DNA from: Deltaproteobacteria bacterium
Lineage (GTDB): Bacteria; Myxococcota; Myxococcia; SLRQ01
Length of the DNA: 64,000 bases
Assembly: GCA_029210625.1 (NCBI GenBank)
Contig: JARGFU010000012.1
Location: forward strand, 124,001 to 188,000
Direction of reading: 5' to 3'
Part shown: piece by piece, positions 13,140 to 62,800 of the stretch
How the letters are laid out: each line of letters starts with the position of its first letter
How positions within the stretch are numbered: position 1 is the stretch's first letter
Notes under the pieces: model-generated
Told to the model about the DNA's origin: nothing
Seen by the model: the letters and a program-made list of their open reading frames with translations, nothing else
Databases searched by the model: none
Position numbers and translations under genes: made by a program

Positions 13140-15263
13140 GTGCGCGCCATCAAACCGACCCTGTCCCGAAGGGGTAGCGCCGTGCACGTGCTCGTGCTCG
13201 TACACGTGCTCGGCCTCTCCCCTGGTACCGCGGAAGCAACGGAGTCGACCGGCTCGAGGAGCGAGATCGCTCCACCGGCCGACGCGGTGGCTCCCCTGCC
13301 AGGCGAGCCGCTCCCCTCCCCCCTCGACCTCTACCTCCAGCGCCTCACAGCGACGGTCGAGGGCCGCGGAGCGCTGGCCCTCCCGGCGGTCTTCCCCGAC
13401 CTGCGCCCCGAGACGCTCGTCCCCCTCTACGCCCGGGCGAAGCCCGGACAGGGCGACGCGCTACGCGCCTCGGTGCTCGCCCTCGGCGGCAGCGCCACCC
13501 ACCTCTCCCGCGAGATCCACGCCGTGCGCCTCCCCGCCGCCGCGCTGGCGGCCTTCGGCGCCCTCCCCTCCCTCTCCCGGGCCGAGGCCTCCCTCCCCCG
13601 CCGTCCCCTGCTCGACACCTCGGTCCCCCTCATCGGCGCCGACCGGGTGCAGACCGGCGAGGGTCTGAACCTGCCCCTGACGGGCAAGGGCGTGATCCTC
13701 GGGCTGGTGGACACCGGCCTCGACTATCGCCACCCCGCCTTCGACGACGCGGAGGGCAACCCCCGGGTGCTCGCCCTCTGGGATCAGACCACCTCCGGGA
13801 CGCCCCCGCCGGGCTTCTCCGAGGGCCACCTCTGCGACGCGGCCAGCATCGCGGACGAGAGCTGCCCCGCCGCCTCGGACCTCGTCGGCCACGGCACCCA
13901 CGTCGCCGCCACCGCCGGCGGGCGCGACCACGACTACGGCGGCGTCGCCCCCGACGTGCGCTTCGTGGTCGCCAAGAGCCTCTCCTTCACCCTCCTGGCC
14001 GAGTCGGCCCGCTGGATCTTCGATCAGGCCGACGCGCTCGGTGAGCCCTGCGTGATCAACATGTCCCTGGGCGGCCACTACGGCCCCCATGACGGCACCC
14101 GCCTCGAGGAGCAGGTCCTCGACGACATCTCGGGTCCCGGCCACGTGCTGGCCATCGCCGCCGGCAACGAGGGCCTGTCGAACCTCCACTTCGGCGCCAC
14201 CCTCGGCGCCGATCCGGTGCGCACGGTCCTCTACGTCGAGCCGGGCTTCGGCTCGGACGGCGGCTTCATCGATCTGTGGTTCGAGGACGACGGCGCCACC
14301 CTCGACCTCGCCCTGCGCGACCGGGACGACTCGGTCCTGGCCGAGACCGGCCCGCGCGGCGCCACCGCGCCGGGCACCCTCGTCCTGCGGGACGGCAGCG
14401 GCGCCGCCTACGGCCAGGTGCAGATCGCCTGGGAGGGGCCGGACCCGGACAACGGGAAGTACCGGGCCAACGTGGTCCTCGTCCCCTCGACCTCGCCGGA
14501 CACCACCGCGGGCAACCCGGCGGGCACCTTCTGGGTGCTCTCCCTCACCGGCACCGGCGGAGTCCACGCCTGGATCGCGAGCAACGCGATGCTCGGCGGG
14601 GGCGCGGCCTTCGGCAACCGCGAGGGCGGCGACTTCCTGCCCGGCGACAGCCGCACCACCGTGGCCATGCCCGGCACGGCCGCCCGGGCCATCACCGTGG
14701 GCGCCCTGACCAGCCGCAAGGCCTGGACCGATCGGGACGGCCGGCCCTTCGAGGAGGCCGCCCTGATCGTCGGAGACCTGGCGGCCTTCTCCTCGGTGGG
14801 CCCCACCGGCGATCCCTCGCGCACGGGCCTCAAGCCGGAGATCACCGCGCCGGGCGAGTACATCGCCGCGCCCTTCGGCCGCAACGCCCTCATCATGGAC
14901 CGCAGCATGATGCTGGAGGAGGACGTCGTCGCCATGCGCGGCACCTCCATGGCCACCCCCCACGTCGCCGGCGTGGTCGCGCTCCTCCTCGAGGCGGACC
15001 CCACCCTCGACCCCGAGGCGATCGAGACGATCCTCACCGAGACCGCCACCGCCGACGGCTTCACCGGCGAGGTCCCCAACGACGACTGGGGCCACGGCAA
15101 GATCGACGCCTGGGCCGCGGCGGCCCGCCTGGTGGGCGAGCCGGCGCCCCCGGCCGATCCCAAGGGCTGCGGCTGCGCGAGCACCGGGGCCACCCCCGGC
15201 CTCGCCGCCCTGCTGCTGGGCGCGGGCCTCCTCGCCCTCGGCCTGCGGAGGCGCCGCGCTTGA
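13140..15263 (+). CDS. secreted subtilase (S8) with MYXO-CTERM-like anchor
   Basis: This serine endopeptidase has the catalytic triad Asp191 (VDTGLD), His251 (GHGTHVA) and Ser603 (GTSMATPH), with about 300 residues inserted between His and Ser that form an extra beta-rich domain. Starting at GTG 13140 gives a signal peptide whose core is made of alternating Val-His/Leu residues. The C-terminus has Gly-Cys-Gly-Cys, a hydrophobic helix and Arg-rich end (about 680-707), the MYXO-CTERM sorting pattern known only in Myxococcota, so the protease is probably surface-anchored. A propeptide likely spans 35-170. ATG 13089 is an alternative start. The esterase gene overlaps its stop. Confidence 0.88.
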   Translation: MRAIKPTLSRRGSAVHVLVLVHVLGLSPGTAEATESTGSRSEIAPPADAVAPLPGEPLPSPLDLYLQRLTATVEGRGALALPAVFPDLRPETLVPLYARAKPGQGDALRASVLALGGSATHLSREIHAVRLPAAALAAFGALPSLSRAEASLPRRPLLDTSVPLIGADRVQTGEGLNLPLTGKGVILGLVDTGLDYRHPAFDDAEGNPRVLALWDQTTSGTPPPGFSEGHLCDAASIADESCPAASDLVGHGTHVAATAGGRDHDYGGVAPDVRFVVAKSLSFTLLAESARWIFDQADALGEPCVINMSLGGHYGPHDGTRLEEQVLDDISGPGHVLAIAAGNEGLSNLHFGATLGADPVRTVLYVEPGFGSDGGFIDLWFEDDGATLDLALRDRDDSVLAETGPRGATAPGTLVLRDGSGAAYGQVQIAWEGPDPDNGKYRANVVLVPSTSPDTTAGNPAGTFWVLSLTGTGGVHAWIASNAMLGGGAAFGNREGGDFLPGDSRTTVAMPGTAARAITVGALTSRKAWTDRDGRPFEEAALIVGDLAAFSSVGPTGDPSRTGLKPEITAPGEYIAAPFGRNALIMDRSMMLEEDVVAMRGTSMATPHVAGVVALLLEADPTLDPEAIETILTETATADGFTGEVPNDDWGHGKIDAWAAAARLVGEPAPPADPKGCGCASTGATPGLAALLLGAGLLALGLRRRRA
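13177..13222 (-). repeat. hexamer array arm inside the subtilase signal-peptide region
   Basis: Read on the minus strand, GGGGAGAGGCC and GAG are followed by CACGTG, TACGAG, CACGAG, CACGTG and CACGGC. This is the same architecture (lead, GWG, four NNCGWG units, a fifth ending in GGC) as the arms at 34101-34134 and 61295-61340. On the plus strand it encodes the Val/His/Leu core of the subtilase signal peptide. Confidence 0.6.
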
Positions 15264-33990: not shown

Positions 33991-34020
33991 GAACGCGTAG
34001 ATAACAGGTTCTCGGCGACC

Positions 34021-34136
34021 TCGTACACGTACACGTACACGTGCACGTACACGGGTTCTCCCCGGAGCCCGTCGGCGCCTCCCTCGTGCCCGAGGAAAGG
34101 CCGTGGACGTGCACGTGTACGTGGACGTGGACGGCG
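34021..34136. repeat. inverted hexamer-repeat element (two arms)
   Basis: Arms 34021-34054 and 34101-34134 are inverted repeats matching at 30 of 34 positions, with a 46-base loop. Each arm, read outward from the loop, is a G-rich lead, GTG, and five hexamers: TACGTG, CACGTG, TACGTG, TACGTG, TACGAG on the minus strand for the left arm; GACGTG, CACGTG, TACGTG, GACGTG, GACGGC on the plus strand for the right arm. It occupies the spacer between rsmB and rpe and encodes nothing recognisable. Confidence 0.85.
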
Positions 34137-38402: not shown

Positions 38403-39559
38403 GCGGCCCAGCACCGTCGTCGCGGCGCGACCGATCCGTCCTCCACCCGGGACTGGGGGTCTGCCTGCTCCTCGCCGGGCTGGCCGGGAGCGGTGATCGG
38501 GCCCTGGCCCAGGCCCCCGAGGAGGCCGCGCCGGCTCCCGCCGAGGCCGAAGCCGAGGCGGTGCCCTCCGCTCGCCCCGCCCCCGGCCGGGTCTTCACCC
38601 TCGAGGAGAGCGAGCGGGCGACCCTCCACTCGACCCTCGCGGAGAGCGGCACCTACAAGGCCCGGATCCAGGCCGCCCTCCTCCTCGGCCGGCGCGGCGA
38701 CGCGCGGCACGACCTGGCGGCCCTCGAGCGCGCCCTCCAGGAGGACGATCACTACGCGGTGCGCGGCGCGTCGGCCATGGCCATGGGCAACCTCGGCGAG
38801 GCCACCGCCATCAACGCCCTCCTCGAGGGGCTCGGGGACGAGGACGCCTTCGTCCGCCGGGCCTGCCGCAAGGCCCTGGGCCAGCTGGCCAGCCCCCAGG
38901 CGATCCCCTACCTCGTGCTCGCCCGCGAGCGCCCGGAGGGCACCGCCCGGATGGTGGCGGTGGAGCTCCTGGGGGGCCTCGACGCCCCTGACGCCCGCCA
39001 CGCCCTCGCCGGCTTCCTCGGTGATCCCGAGCCGCCGGTGCGGGACGCGGTCGAGCGCGCCCTGAAGTCCTGGCCTCGCGAGGATCAGGTCACGGCCGTG
39101 CTCTCGGCGCTGGAGAGCGACTCCTACCGGGTGCGCACCCACGCCGCCCGCCTCGCCGGTCCCCTGCAGGACGGCCGCTGCCTGATGCCCCTGGCGGGCC
39201 TCCTCTCCTCTCCCCTGGAGACCGAGGAGGTCATCGCCGCGGTCGACGCCAGCCTCGTCGAGATGGAGGGGCTGATCGACGTGGACGATCACATCAAGCG
39301 GGTGCTGGGTCTGGTCGATCGCGAGGCCCGGATCCCCTCCCTCGTCCTCCTGGGCTTCGCCGGGGGCTCGGAGGCCATCGACGTCCTGCGGCGCAGCGCG
39401 AAGGATCCCGATCTGCGGGTGCGCTTCTATGCGGTGCAGGCCCTCGGCCGGGCCGGCGACACCGGCTCGCGCGTGATGCTCGAGGCGATGGAGAAGGATC
39501 CGGCCAACGCCCGGATCAAGAGCGTCATCCGGACGGCGCTGCGCACCATCGGCAGCTGA
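38399..39559 (+). CDS. exported HEAT/PBS-lyase repeat protein
   Basis: This 386-residue protein has a signal peptide (about 1-36, ending ALA), an Ala/Glu-rich spacer (39-60), and at least seven HEAT-like repeats of the E-x-A/DxxxRR type (about 90-386) such as DHYAVRGASAMAMGNLG, DAFVRRACRKALGQLA and DLRVRFYAVQALGRAG. HEAT repeats form protein-binding superhelices. It lies in an operon with the HAMP-like protein, and the next gene is a HEAT lipoprotein, suggesting a scaffold. No enzyme motif is visible. Confidence 0.8.
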   Translation: MSGPAPSSRRDRSVLHPGLGVCLLLAGLAGSGDRALAQAPEEAAPAPAEAEAEAVPSARPAPGRVFTLEESERATLHSTLAESGTYKARIQAALLLGRRGDARHDLAALERALQEDDHYAVRGASAMAMGNLGEATAINALLEGLGDEDAFVRRACRKALGQLASPQAIPYLVLARERPEGTARMVAVELLGGLDAPDARHALAGFLGDPEPPVRDAVERALKSWPREDQVTAVLSALESDSYRVRTHAARLAGPLQDGRCLMPLAGLLSSPLETEEVIAAVDASLVEMEGLIDVDDHIKRVLGLVDREARIPSLVLLGFAGGSEAIDVLRRSAKDPDLRVRFYAVQALGRAGDTGSRVMLEAMEKDPANARIKSVIRTALRTIGS

Positions 39560-60728: not shown

Positions 60729-61283
60729 TCAGAAACCGGTGGGCACGGGCCCGCAGACCTTCGCGTCGACCCGGGCGAAGACGCCCTGCTCCAGGGTGCA
60801 GTGCTCGTCCGCGCCCTCGGCCTCGCAGGTGAAGGTGAAGCCCTTCGCGTCGAGGGTGCCGGAGTAGGTCCAGAGGTTGCGGGAGAAGCCATCGCTCTCC
60901 TTGCCCGAGAGGTCGGTGTCCAGGCCGATGGCGTCGCCCCAGAGATCGCGCTCGCCGAGCTGGAAGGAGAGCTTCACCCCCTCGACCTTCACGGCCTTCG
61001 CGTCGGTCTTGAACCAGGCGACGAAGTCCGGCCCCTCGACTCCGAGGTACTCGGCGGAGAGGACGCCCTCGCTGCCGGTGATGCGCAGCTGGTGGGGCTC
61101 CTGCCCCTCCTCGGACCACTGGTAGCAGCCGGTGAGCTCGACGGCGGGCGGCGCCTCGGGCTTCGTCGGCGCGGGCGCGGCCTCCTCTGGCGCGGGCGCG
61201 GTGGGGGGCGGCGCCTCCTCCTTCTGCTCGGGGCAGGCGGTGAGGAGGAGCACGAGGGCGAGGAGAAGTGACGGGGTCCGCAT
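60729..61283 (-). CDS. small lipoprotein of unknown function
   Basis: This 184-residue lipoprotein (lipobox LLLTAC, Cys17) has a Pro/Ala/Glu linker (20-50) and a beta-rich domain with four Cys (GCYQWSEE, CEAEGADEHC, CGPVP). I recognise no family. ATG 61283 is chosen over ATG 61292. A hexamer repeat arm lies just upstream. Confidence 0.62.
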   Translation of the reverse strand: MRTPSLLLALVLLLTACPEQKEEAPPPTAPAPEEAAPAPTKPEAPPAVELTGCYQWSEEGQEPHQLRITGSEGVLSAEYLGVEGPDFVAWFKTDAKAVKVEGVKLSFQLGERDLWGDAIGLDTDLSGKESDGFSRNLWTYSGTLDAKGFTFTCEAEGADEHCTLEQGVFARVDAKVCGPVPTGF

Positions 61284-61294
61284 GAGGGCCATCC

Positions 61295-61340
61295 TAGGAA
61301 AGGCCGTGCGCGAGCGTGAGCGCGTGCGCGTGCGCGGGCG
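61295..61340 (+). repeat. hexamer array arm (GC version)
   Basis: TAGGAAAGGCC and GTG are followed by CGCGAG, CGTGAG, CGCGTG, CGCGTG and CGCGGG. The lead AGGAAAGGCCGTG is identical to that of the right arm at 34101-34134 and the units keep the NNCGWG (or NNTGAG) form. It fills the spacer between the lipoprotein at 60729 and the sigma54 activator. Confidence 0.65.
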
Positions 61341-61351
61341 GACCGGGGGCT

Positions 61352-62800
<1,449 letters not shown>

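Follow-up and report, generated by a model that had tools for sequence, protein, structure and literature searches.

The closest described systems to the repeats considered here are the intervening sequences (IVSs) of 23S rRNA genes and several families of short tandem repeats dispersed between genes. The IVS of Coxiella burnetii 23S rRNA carries an open reading frame (ORF) for an S23 protein (S23p), inverted repeats and tandem heptamers (GACAGAT) ahead of the ORF; the accessible part of the source calls it a selfish element, mentions mobility as one theory and states that the fold of S23 (IVP) proteins has been solved while their function is not known (PMC4990558). We compare these systems with a six-nucleotide repeat array at 61.3 kb of the window, i.e., the whole stretch of 64,000 nucleotides analysed from contig JARGFU010000012.1 of a Deltaproteobacteria bacterium, and with the dispersed hexamer repeats and S23 genes (Pfam PF05635, 23S_rRNA_IVP) of the same genome. 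The main point, which was not visible to the first-pass annotation of the window, is that arms made of such repeats bracket S23 genes.

Cyanobacterial STRRs are degenerate short tandem repeats with few units per array and intergenic positions, and REP/BIME elements with RAYT are dispersed intergenic palindromes, the gene being flanked by the same repeats. The hexamer family differs from the latter in that the protein is S23 rather than a Y1 transposase and the arms are tandem 6–8-mers. The traits of STRR and GGGNATC repeats, namely dispersed, intergenic tandem units of 6–8 nt with a degenerate position, were found in the hexamer family as well. GGGNATC heptamer arrays of Xanthomonas and Nostoc stand near stop codons, and the available part of their description gives the function as unknown and presents them as G-quadruplex repeats, generally without association with mobile elements (PMC4692102). 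As far as that part goes, they resemble the hexamers in their degenerate short units, few per array, intergenic and near stops, and in being under-represented between divergent genes; unlike them, the hexamer arms start with a lead, are paired in inverted orientation and bracket an S23 gene. TAACTGA heptamers of Beggiatoaceae form 169 sets of direct intergenic arrays in one genome; unlike the hexamers, they mostly lie just before start codons, and the portion of the account seen contains no mention of S23 (PMC4679880).

Like the IVS, as partly described, the complete element found here on contig C34 has an S23 ORF within inverted repeats. Unlike the IVS, the present elements stand between protein genes and not in a 23S rRNA helix (no rRNA match was found in the window with Rfam), their stem is itself made of short tandem units and many dispersed copies have no ORF. 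PF05635 is also said, in the accessible part of the source, to resemble Avd of diversity-generating retroelements (PMC10053308); the likeness to Avd consists of this resemblance, no search for a reverse transcriptase or a template repeat having been made here. In the open-access literature, the titles and abstracts among the matches listed did not link S23 genes to short-repeat arms, save for the Coxiella heptamers.

S23 genes between short-repeat arms

An outward-facing pair of hexamer arms at C34:39167-39802 (636 bp, with inverted arms at 39167 and 39802) encloses an ORF matching PF05635 23S_rRNA_IVP (57 bits, 2.1e-15). The genome holds three S23 genes, and all three have short-repeat arms on both sides, of a different family each: hexamer arms, GGCTSAC heptamer arms and GAGCTNN arms (locus L370). 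The GAGCTNN arms of L370, recognised by eye only, comprise five units on one side and a two-unit remnant on the other. Both S23 genes of genome G125, which belongs to another genus, are bracketed too, one by arms of the TCGAGNG family dispersed in that genome and the other by 77-nt, 88% inverted arms made of 6-mers. Ends in common with a gene-bearing form, a trait of miniature inverted-repeat transposable elements, were found twice. Most short TCGAGNG copies in G125 match the S23-bearing copy in their ends (array) and in two inner motifs, and the arms-only GGCTSAC copy C1:197034 has both ends in common with the S23-bearing GGCTSAC element (L375); the hexamer copies share arms alone. No match to the C34 S23 protein was found in plasmids with tblastn, and none to the L370 S23 protein in phages.

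A further observation concerns the S23-bearing elements L376 and L375, which have a common hairpin-like stretch (GCCGGCCCC...GGGTGAGGGCCGTCG) within roughly the last 100 bases ahead of the S23 start (1393 and 1453, respectively). By eye, its outer stem seems to vary by matching changes.

A tblastn search with one S23 protein gave 25 plasmid records, mostly from cyanobacteria, and the best place of each was examined. The score compares one flank with the other in reverse complement, and intervals of the same loci served as controls. An inverted-flank score of at least 28 was reached by 21 of the 25 plasmid S23 loci and 2 of 50 controls (P 1e-12), and a score of at least 34 by 19 of 25 and 1 of 50, respectively. 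Short repeats on both sides were present at 13 of 25 loci and at none of the 50 controls. A mixed set of 45 S23 loci (15 of the plasmid loci, 24 from viral contigs and 6 from the phylum, one too-short locus having been dropped) gave a score of at least 34 in 27 cases vs 0 of 86 controls. The repeat units differ among most of the printed S23 lineages. Most plasmid S23 elements stand among annotated coding sequences (L381 and L383 are unannotated there).

The Nostoc sp. C052 plasmid pC052_D (L384) and the Nostoc sp. ATCC 53789 plasmid pNsp_c (L386) have neighbouring genes in common and carry reciprocal occupied and empty sites. In L384, an S23 element with AGGAGTC arms occupies a stop/start junction that is empty in L386; in L386, an S23 element with GGGGAAA-type arms occupies the next junction, which is empty in L384. 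ATG flanks the L386 element on both sides, and the L384 element has no clear duplication. Another plasmid of the ATCC 53789 strain, pNsp_b (L421), has two short adjacent four-helix-bundle ORFs, perhaps a decaying S23 element.

In three cyanobacterial plasmids (L378, L380 and L382), S23 genes with short-repeat flanks were observed among cas genes (cas6/cas4, cas10/cmr3-like). The available part of another source reports 18 23S_rRNA_IVP genes in cas loci (PMC3936711). The S23 genes found there may have been inserted and not belong to the cas genes.

Palindromes dispersed between genes and located at gene ends resemble REP elements, and the genome has four Y1_Tnp matches, three of them above the cut-off. 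An element of REP/RAYT type spread by a Y1 (HUH) transposase is nevertheless very improbable, as no arm was present in the stretches (1.9–5.2 kb) around all four Y1 matches and the arms bracket an S23 gene instead.

The hexamer family and the array at 61.3 kb

The following features of the window are referred to below.

61296..61305, + strand: lead, consisting of A and the family lead GGAAAGGCC (61297-61305); it belongs to the exact 13-mer AGGAAAGGCCGTG, with six genomic copies, all array-linked
61306..61341, + strand: six-unit diverged array, by sequence, Tandem Repeats Finder (61305-61340, period 6) and profile (17.9 bits)
34020..34135, no strand assigned: canonical two-arm element with leads inward, arms C12:158061(-) and C12:158094(+)
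13173..13220 (C12:137220), - strand: another hexamer-family arm (GGAGAGGCC, then GAG/GTG units), 49.1 bits
41360..41427, no strand assigned: GAGCTNN heptamer hairpin, beginning immediately behind a called gene's TGA stop
61352..62746, - strand: regulator gene (PAS / sigma-54 activator / HTH_8), whose start may lie as far out as 62842; Pfam PF00158 (2.5e-67), PF00989 and PF02954; gene call
60729..61292, - strand: small protein gene, by gene call, with its start 4 nt beyond the 61.3-kb lead

The family pattern [GGARARNCC][GTGNAC]x5, with at most one mismatch, gave 136 matches in the whole genome vs 7 for the reversed pattern. In partial support of the first-pass interpretation, lead and 6-nt period mark a genuine family spread over the genome. 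Statistics were calculated for 134 arms, 117 of them clean, from 1.21 Mb of fetched stretches, which were picked partly by pattern matches and are not a density sample; three arms of the 117-arm set are coding coincidences, and right halves of fused forms are also included in it. A conserved C stands four bases upstream of the lead in 103 of the 117 clean arms, and GGAAAGGCC is the lead in 17 of them (the 61.3-kb arm counted). Over the first four units of these arms, the positions other than N were 99.6, 91, 91, 90 and 97% constant, and N was T in 166, C in 157, G in 122 and A in 23 of 468 cases. Five units were present in 57 of 92 arms, and 12 of the 16 fused hairpins had a total of five.

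The comparison of constant and varying bases advised in the first-pass annotation revealed five near-fixed positions and a free N, and complementarity of the varying bases in hairpins no higher than by chance. In the 53 arms that have four canonical units, the N patterns were unrelated (identical pairs: 11 vs 12.1 expected). Recent copying or gene conversion would have made the N bases similar as well and is therefore not what keeps the units alike; hence the fixed positions look to be selected for recognition. Plain slippage, as in microsatellites, would produce tandem units, and identical neighbouring N were indeed in slight excess (58 of 159 vs 50.7 expected). It is hardly credible in view of the single free position among five fixed ones, the common lead, the inverted pairing and the preference for five units.

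Several other candidates were tried and rejected. Read as coding on the complementary strand, the units would be GTN CAC (Val-His) with N silent, and the 35% share of GTA stands against 0.4% GTA among the genome's Val codons; in the other frame, GTG is used and GTC or GAT hardly ever. Z-DNA was rejected because the alternation is broken where N = G (26% of units). With regard to G-quadruplexes, the GTGNAC unit has, by inspection, no run of three or more G.

The canonical array gave 219 matches in this genome vs 2 for the control. In 194 other genomes of the phylum, it gave 51 in G087, 36 in G128 and at most 7 in each of the other 192, with none in the sister genus (G001); the genomes searched included no second member of the genus of the window genome. 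Lead plus array, in the stricter form, had 0 matches in 84,980 species (near relatives may be excluded) and, in the looser form, 32 matches, one each, none with four canonical units; viral contigs gave one such match, also without four canonical units. The 34.1-kb element had no match in plasmids or phages. These counts bear on the reading that the repeats are a binding array for an unrelated DNA-binding (nucleoid or roadblock) protein, selected at about 100 loci. The fixed GTG-AC positions and free N do resemble a recognition sequence, and single arms use both strands alike. However, the rarity of the canonical array in the phylum would be odd for a housekeeping site, the 32 single matches in other species point the same way and the bracketing of S23 genes is left unexplained, so that we consider this reading quite improbable.

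Other repeat families have a comparable form. GAGCTNN heptamer hairpins occur in convergent gaps of this genome (68 matches vs 1 for the control), and TCGAGNG heptamers in G125 (48 vs 0). Among the TCGAGNG matches listed, six inverted pairs stand 113–163 nt apart, and TAG immediately precedes the array in several printed loci (by eye, the reading frame not taken into account). In addition, another genome has, in a single place (G012:C14:111954-112035), about 12 TCGAGGT heptamers in a perfect tandem array. G087, which represents another genus, contains GTGGAC/GTGGTC 6-mer arrays (206 matches at up to two mismatches, control 0; e.g., on C51, C138 and C179); some are intergenic hairpins by eye, and the printed ones lack the hexamer-family lead.

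The first-pass annotation described the array at 61.3 kb as a third repeat arm with a lead identical to the right arm near 34.1 kb. The identity is exact: AGGAAAGGCCGTG occupies 61296-61308 (the start given earlier was one base too early), and its only other copy in the window is at 34093-34105. A window search at up to two mismatches found the same two sites only, and shuffled sequences gave a mean of 1.5 sites, with two or more in 44 of 100. As the shuffles match this two-copy count, the weight rests on the exact genome-wide copies. The whole genome (6,114,754 bases, 64 contigs) contains six copies of AGGAAAGGCCGTG vs 0 for the reversed control, and a 6-nt array follows directly after every one of them, five canonical and the sixth at 61.3 kb. 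The possibility raised at first pass, that the 13-mer is abundant away from arrays and the identity a coincidence, did not materialise.

In the phase used earlier, the 61.3-kb units do read CGCGAG CGTGAG CGCGTG CGCGTG CGCGGG, followed by CGG; in the family register (61306-61341) they are GTGCGC GAGCGT GAGCGC GTGCGC GTGCGC GGGCGG. Tandem Repeats Finder reported 6.0 copies of 6 nt with 83% matches at 61305-61340. Compared with the 34.1-kb arm, A is replaced by G at the second base of the earlier phase in five of five units, where the earlier reading had most of them, and there are further changes, two of T to A and one each of T to G and C to T. In the clean arms other than this one, G-for-A units numbered 18, with N = C in 16, i.e., CpA to CpG, and GAG replaced GTG in 15 units. 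The A-to-G change looks like a context-dependent change in a few arms. The 61.3-kb array is filled by CpA to CpG and GTG to GAG changes, both recurrent elsewhere in the family; within other arms there are 13 GTGCGC, 7 GAGCAC and 3 GAGCGC units.

The 61.3-kb arm scored 17.9 bits with a profile built without it. Canonical arms in an 864-kb sample scored 41–68 bits, with one at 29.0, and the best score of a fifth-order Markov null over 4 million positions was -1.9. The best coding coincidence in the same sample scored 17.4 bits, which is near the score at 61.3 kb and gives some support to the view that the array is a chance GC-rich low-complexity stretch beside a chance 13-mer. GC-type matches do include, by eye, codon runs for signal peptides (LALALAL) and ER-rich tails, and the reversed control of the GC-type pattern gave 7 vs 30. 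The GC-rich subfamily matches C1:170238, C14:162500, C20:105912, C46:14804 with 14835, and C21:78054 with 78133 were rejected by eye as coding coincidences. Other GCGC-rich arms are intergenic, by gene call (C18:131269, C21:78728, C21:78956) or by eye (C22:70330, C12:22901). A chance origin is unlikely, however, given that all six genomic 13-mer copies precede 6-nt arrays, that the same substitutions occur within other hexamer arms and that the 61.3-kb array is intergenic and 10 nt behind a stop, like other family members. From its sequence, we read the array as one diverged arm of the dispersed hexamer family, solitary and without an ORF, a membership that rests on the lead and the place, the array by itself being insufficient.

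The two flanking minus-strand genes are about 60 nt apart, and the arm, which encloses no S23 gene, takes up the greater part of this gap. The stop of the regulator gene (61352) is 10 nt from the array. The small protein on the other side has a lipoprotein-like signal at its N-terminus (by eye) and no match in a Pfam search.

Gene-end placement, pairing and folding

The placement of the elements was studied with gene calls from a simple in-house caller. Starts were trimmed where an arm overlapped the called start, and elements beside trimmed starts were excluded from the placement test. The hexamer elements settle mostly just behind stop codons. Of 77 intergenic elements, 37 lie in tandem, 26 in convergent and 14 in divergent gaps, vs 176, 28 and 109 among 313 background gaps of at least 40 nt. 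In tandem gaps, 21 of the 25 usable elements (whole, untrimmed gap) were closer to the upstream stop (P 1.5e-4), and the convergent elements stood at a median of 11.5 nt from a stop.

Two-arm elements were inverted in 46 of 47 cases, and the only same-strand case is due to a double detection of one arm with a shift of 6 nt. The forms include 16 fused palindromes (48 bp), 9 lead-outward pairs with a longer loop, 21 lead-inward pairs with a spacer of 24–33 nt and single arms (30 folded). Among the inward pairs, 15 combine an A-type with a G-type lead, 6 have two G-type leads and none two A-type leads. The canonical element at 34.1 kb is of the inward form, with leads GGAGAACCC on the minus strand (34053-34061) and GGAAAGGCC on the plus strand (34094-34102). 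It is flanked by the RsmB/F and ribulose-phosphate 3-epimerase genes (Pfam), and its two strands fold at -71 and -76 kcal/mol. One outward pair, C3:231303-231479, stands between genes called divergent; about 75 nt of its loop are AT-rich, although the genome has 72% GC.

Fold z values fell below -2 in all 9 lead-out and all 16 fused elements and in 19 of the 21 lead-in elements, vs 17 of 30 single arms. Opposed N bases were complementary in 8 of 19 (5.9 expected), 10 of 30 (11.0) and 23 of 64 (26.9) cases, which is the chance level, and a single compensated change was found among 69 opposed position pairs with a change. As the opposed bases do not covary, the sequence, rather than its pairing, is held. 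The first-pass annotation had suggested selection on period or structure; selection on structure is not supported by these counts. Selection on the period holds for the family, where a fixed unit count is typical; since the 61.3-kb arm has no partner, selection on it cannot be claimed, and it is most likely a relic.

The same results bear on the possibility that the elements are transcription terminators or mRNA 3'-end hairpins behind stops, which end or protect transcripts without any mobile element. Placement behind stops agrees with this, as do the convergent excess (26 of 77 elements vs 28 of 313 background gaps) and the strong folding of the paired forms. However, single arms in tandem gene pairs showed no strand preference (9 to 9), and a directional terminator is therefore disfavoured; the sense fold was stronger than the antisense fold in only 10 of 18 single arms. 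The near-absence of compensated changes speaks against it, the listed arms have no long U-run (with the leads read in reverse, no run of T exceeds TTTT) and the bracketing of S23 genes is not accounted for. Rfam at gathering thresholds matched only a tRNA in 113 kb including elements. A terminator function as the whole explanation is thus improbable.

The proposed S23 element and its meaning

We consider it rather likely that the 61.3-kb array is an arm of an S23-associated family of mobile-like elements. A complete element would be an inverted pair of arms, each with a 9-nt lead and about five 6-nt units, around the gene of an S23 four-helix bundle; the 636-bp C34 copy would be this complete form and is the only hexamer element found with an S23 gene. 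The 48-bp fused palindromes, the two-arm forms with a short spacer and the single arms would be gene-less copies, presumably descended from S23-bearing ones. The S23 protein may act on or bind the arms, and the element probably moves. The units at 61.3 kb would be the product of CpA to CpG and GTG to GAG steps.

Several points weigh against this reading. Hexamer arms accompany one of the genome's three S23 genes, and L370, with its remnant arm, fails the automatic score (24). The S23 gene of the sister genus (L373) is without arms, and that of G087, on a short contig, has a 6-mer array on its one visible side. Four of the 25 plasmid loci fail, L387 with direct repeats and L423-L425 with truncated or broken S23 genes, and the two control intervals named above pass score 28. 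Three of the 27 high-scoring mixed-set loci (L378, L400 and L413) give a better score as direct repeats, and at least one flank carries short repeats at 36 of the 45 loci and also at 20 of the 86 controls. The score thresholds were chosen after the scores were known, and the loci are not all independent, as the sets of 45 and 25 overlap and near-identical loci are included. No clean target duplication was established at the two Nostoc sites, and S23 is not known to have a transposase-like domain. Divergent gaps account for 14 of the 77 intergenic elements, the gene calls place 8 further elements within genes, and the best coding coincidence comes within half a bit of the 61.3-kb arm.

TRAP reads a repeated RNA motif as a ring. 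The PDB relatives of S23, 2gsc (XCC0516) and 2rld, have five chains each, and 2gsc is described, in the accessible part of the source, as a homopentamer of four-helix bundles (PMC4990558). Five subunits beside five units suggest, by analogy, a ring reading a repeated motif and skipping a free base; in the proposed element, a five-subunit S23 ring would read about five units and skip N.

In bacteria of several kinds, the S23 gene and its short-repeat arms have the look of a small mobile element. More tentatively, S23 proteins could define widespread small mobile elements with degenerate short-tandem-repeat arms, whose lineage-specific units (GTGNAC, GAGCTNN, TCGAGNG, AGGAGTC and AGGGTGT, among others) would be read by the five-subunit S23 ring at about one per subunit, the free bases falling between the contacts. 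The long-unexplained dispersed 6–8-mer families of cyanobacteria, xanthomonads and the bacteria studied here would then be arms-only copies, and the rRNA IVSs and the S23 genes of cas operons other landing sites. We regard this wider generalisation as possible but doubtful.

The worn single arm at 61.3 kb matters only as the lead to the association of S23 genes with arms. If arms and S23 do belong together, S23 genes in cas and conjugation operons could simply be read as insertions and not as parts of those systems. Dispersed heptamer repeats have so far been without a known partner, and S23 proteins without a known function; under the same condition, a single protein and a single oligonucleotide would make the two questions testable.
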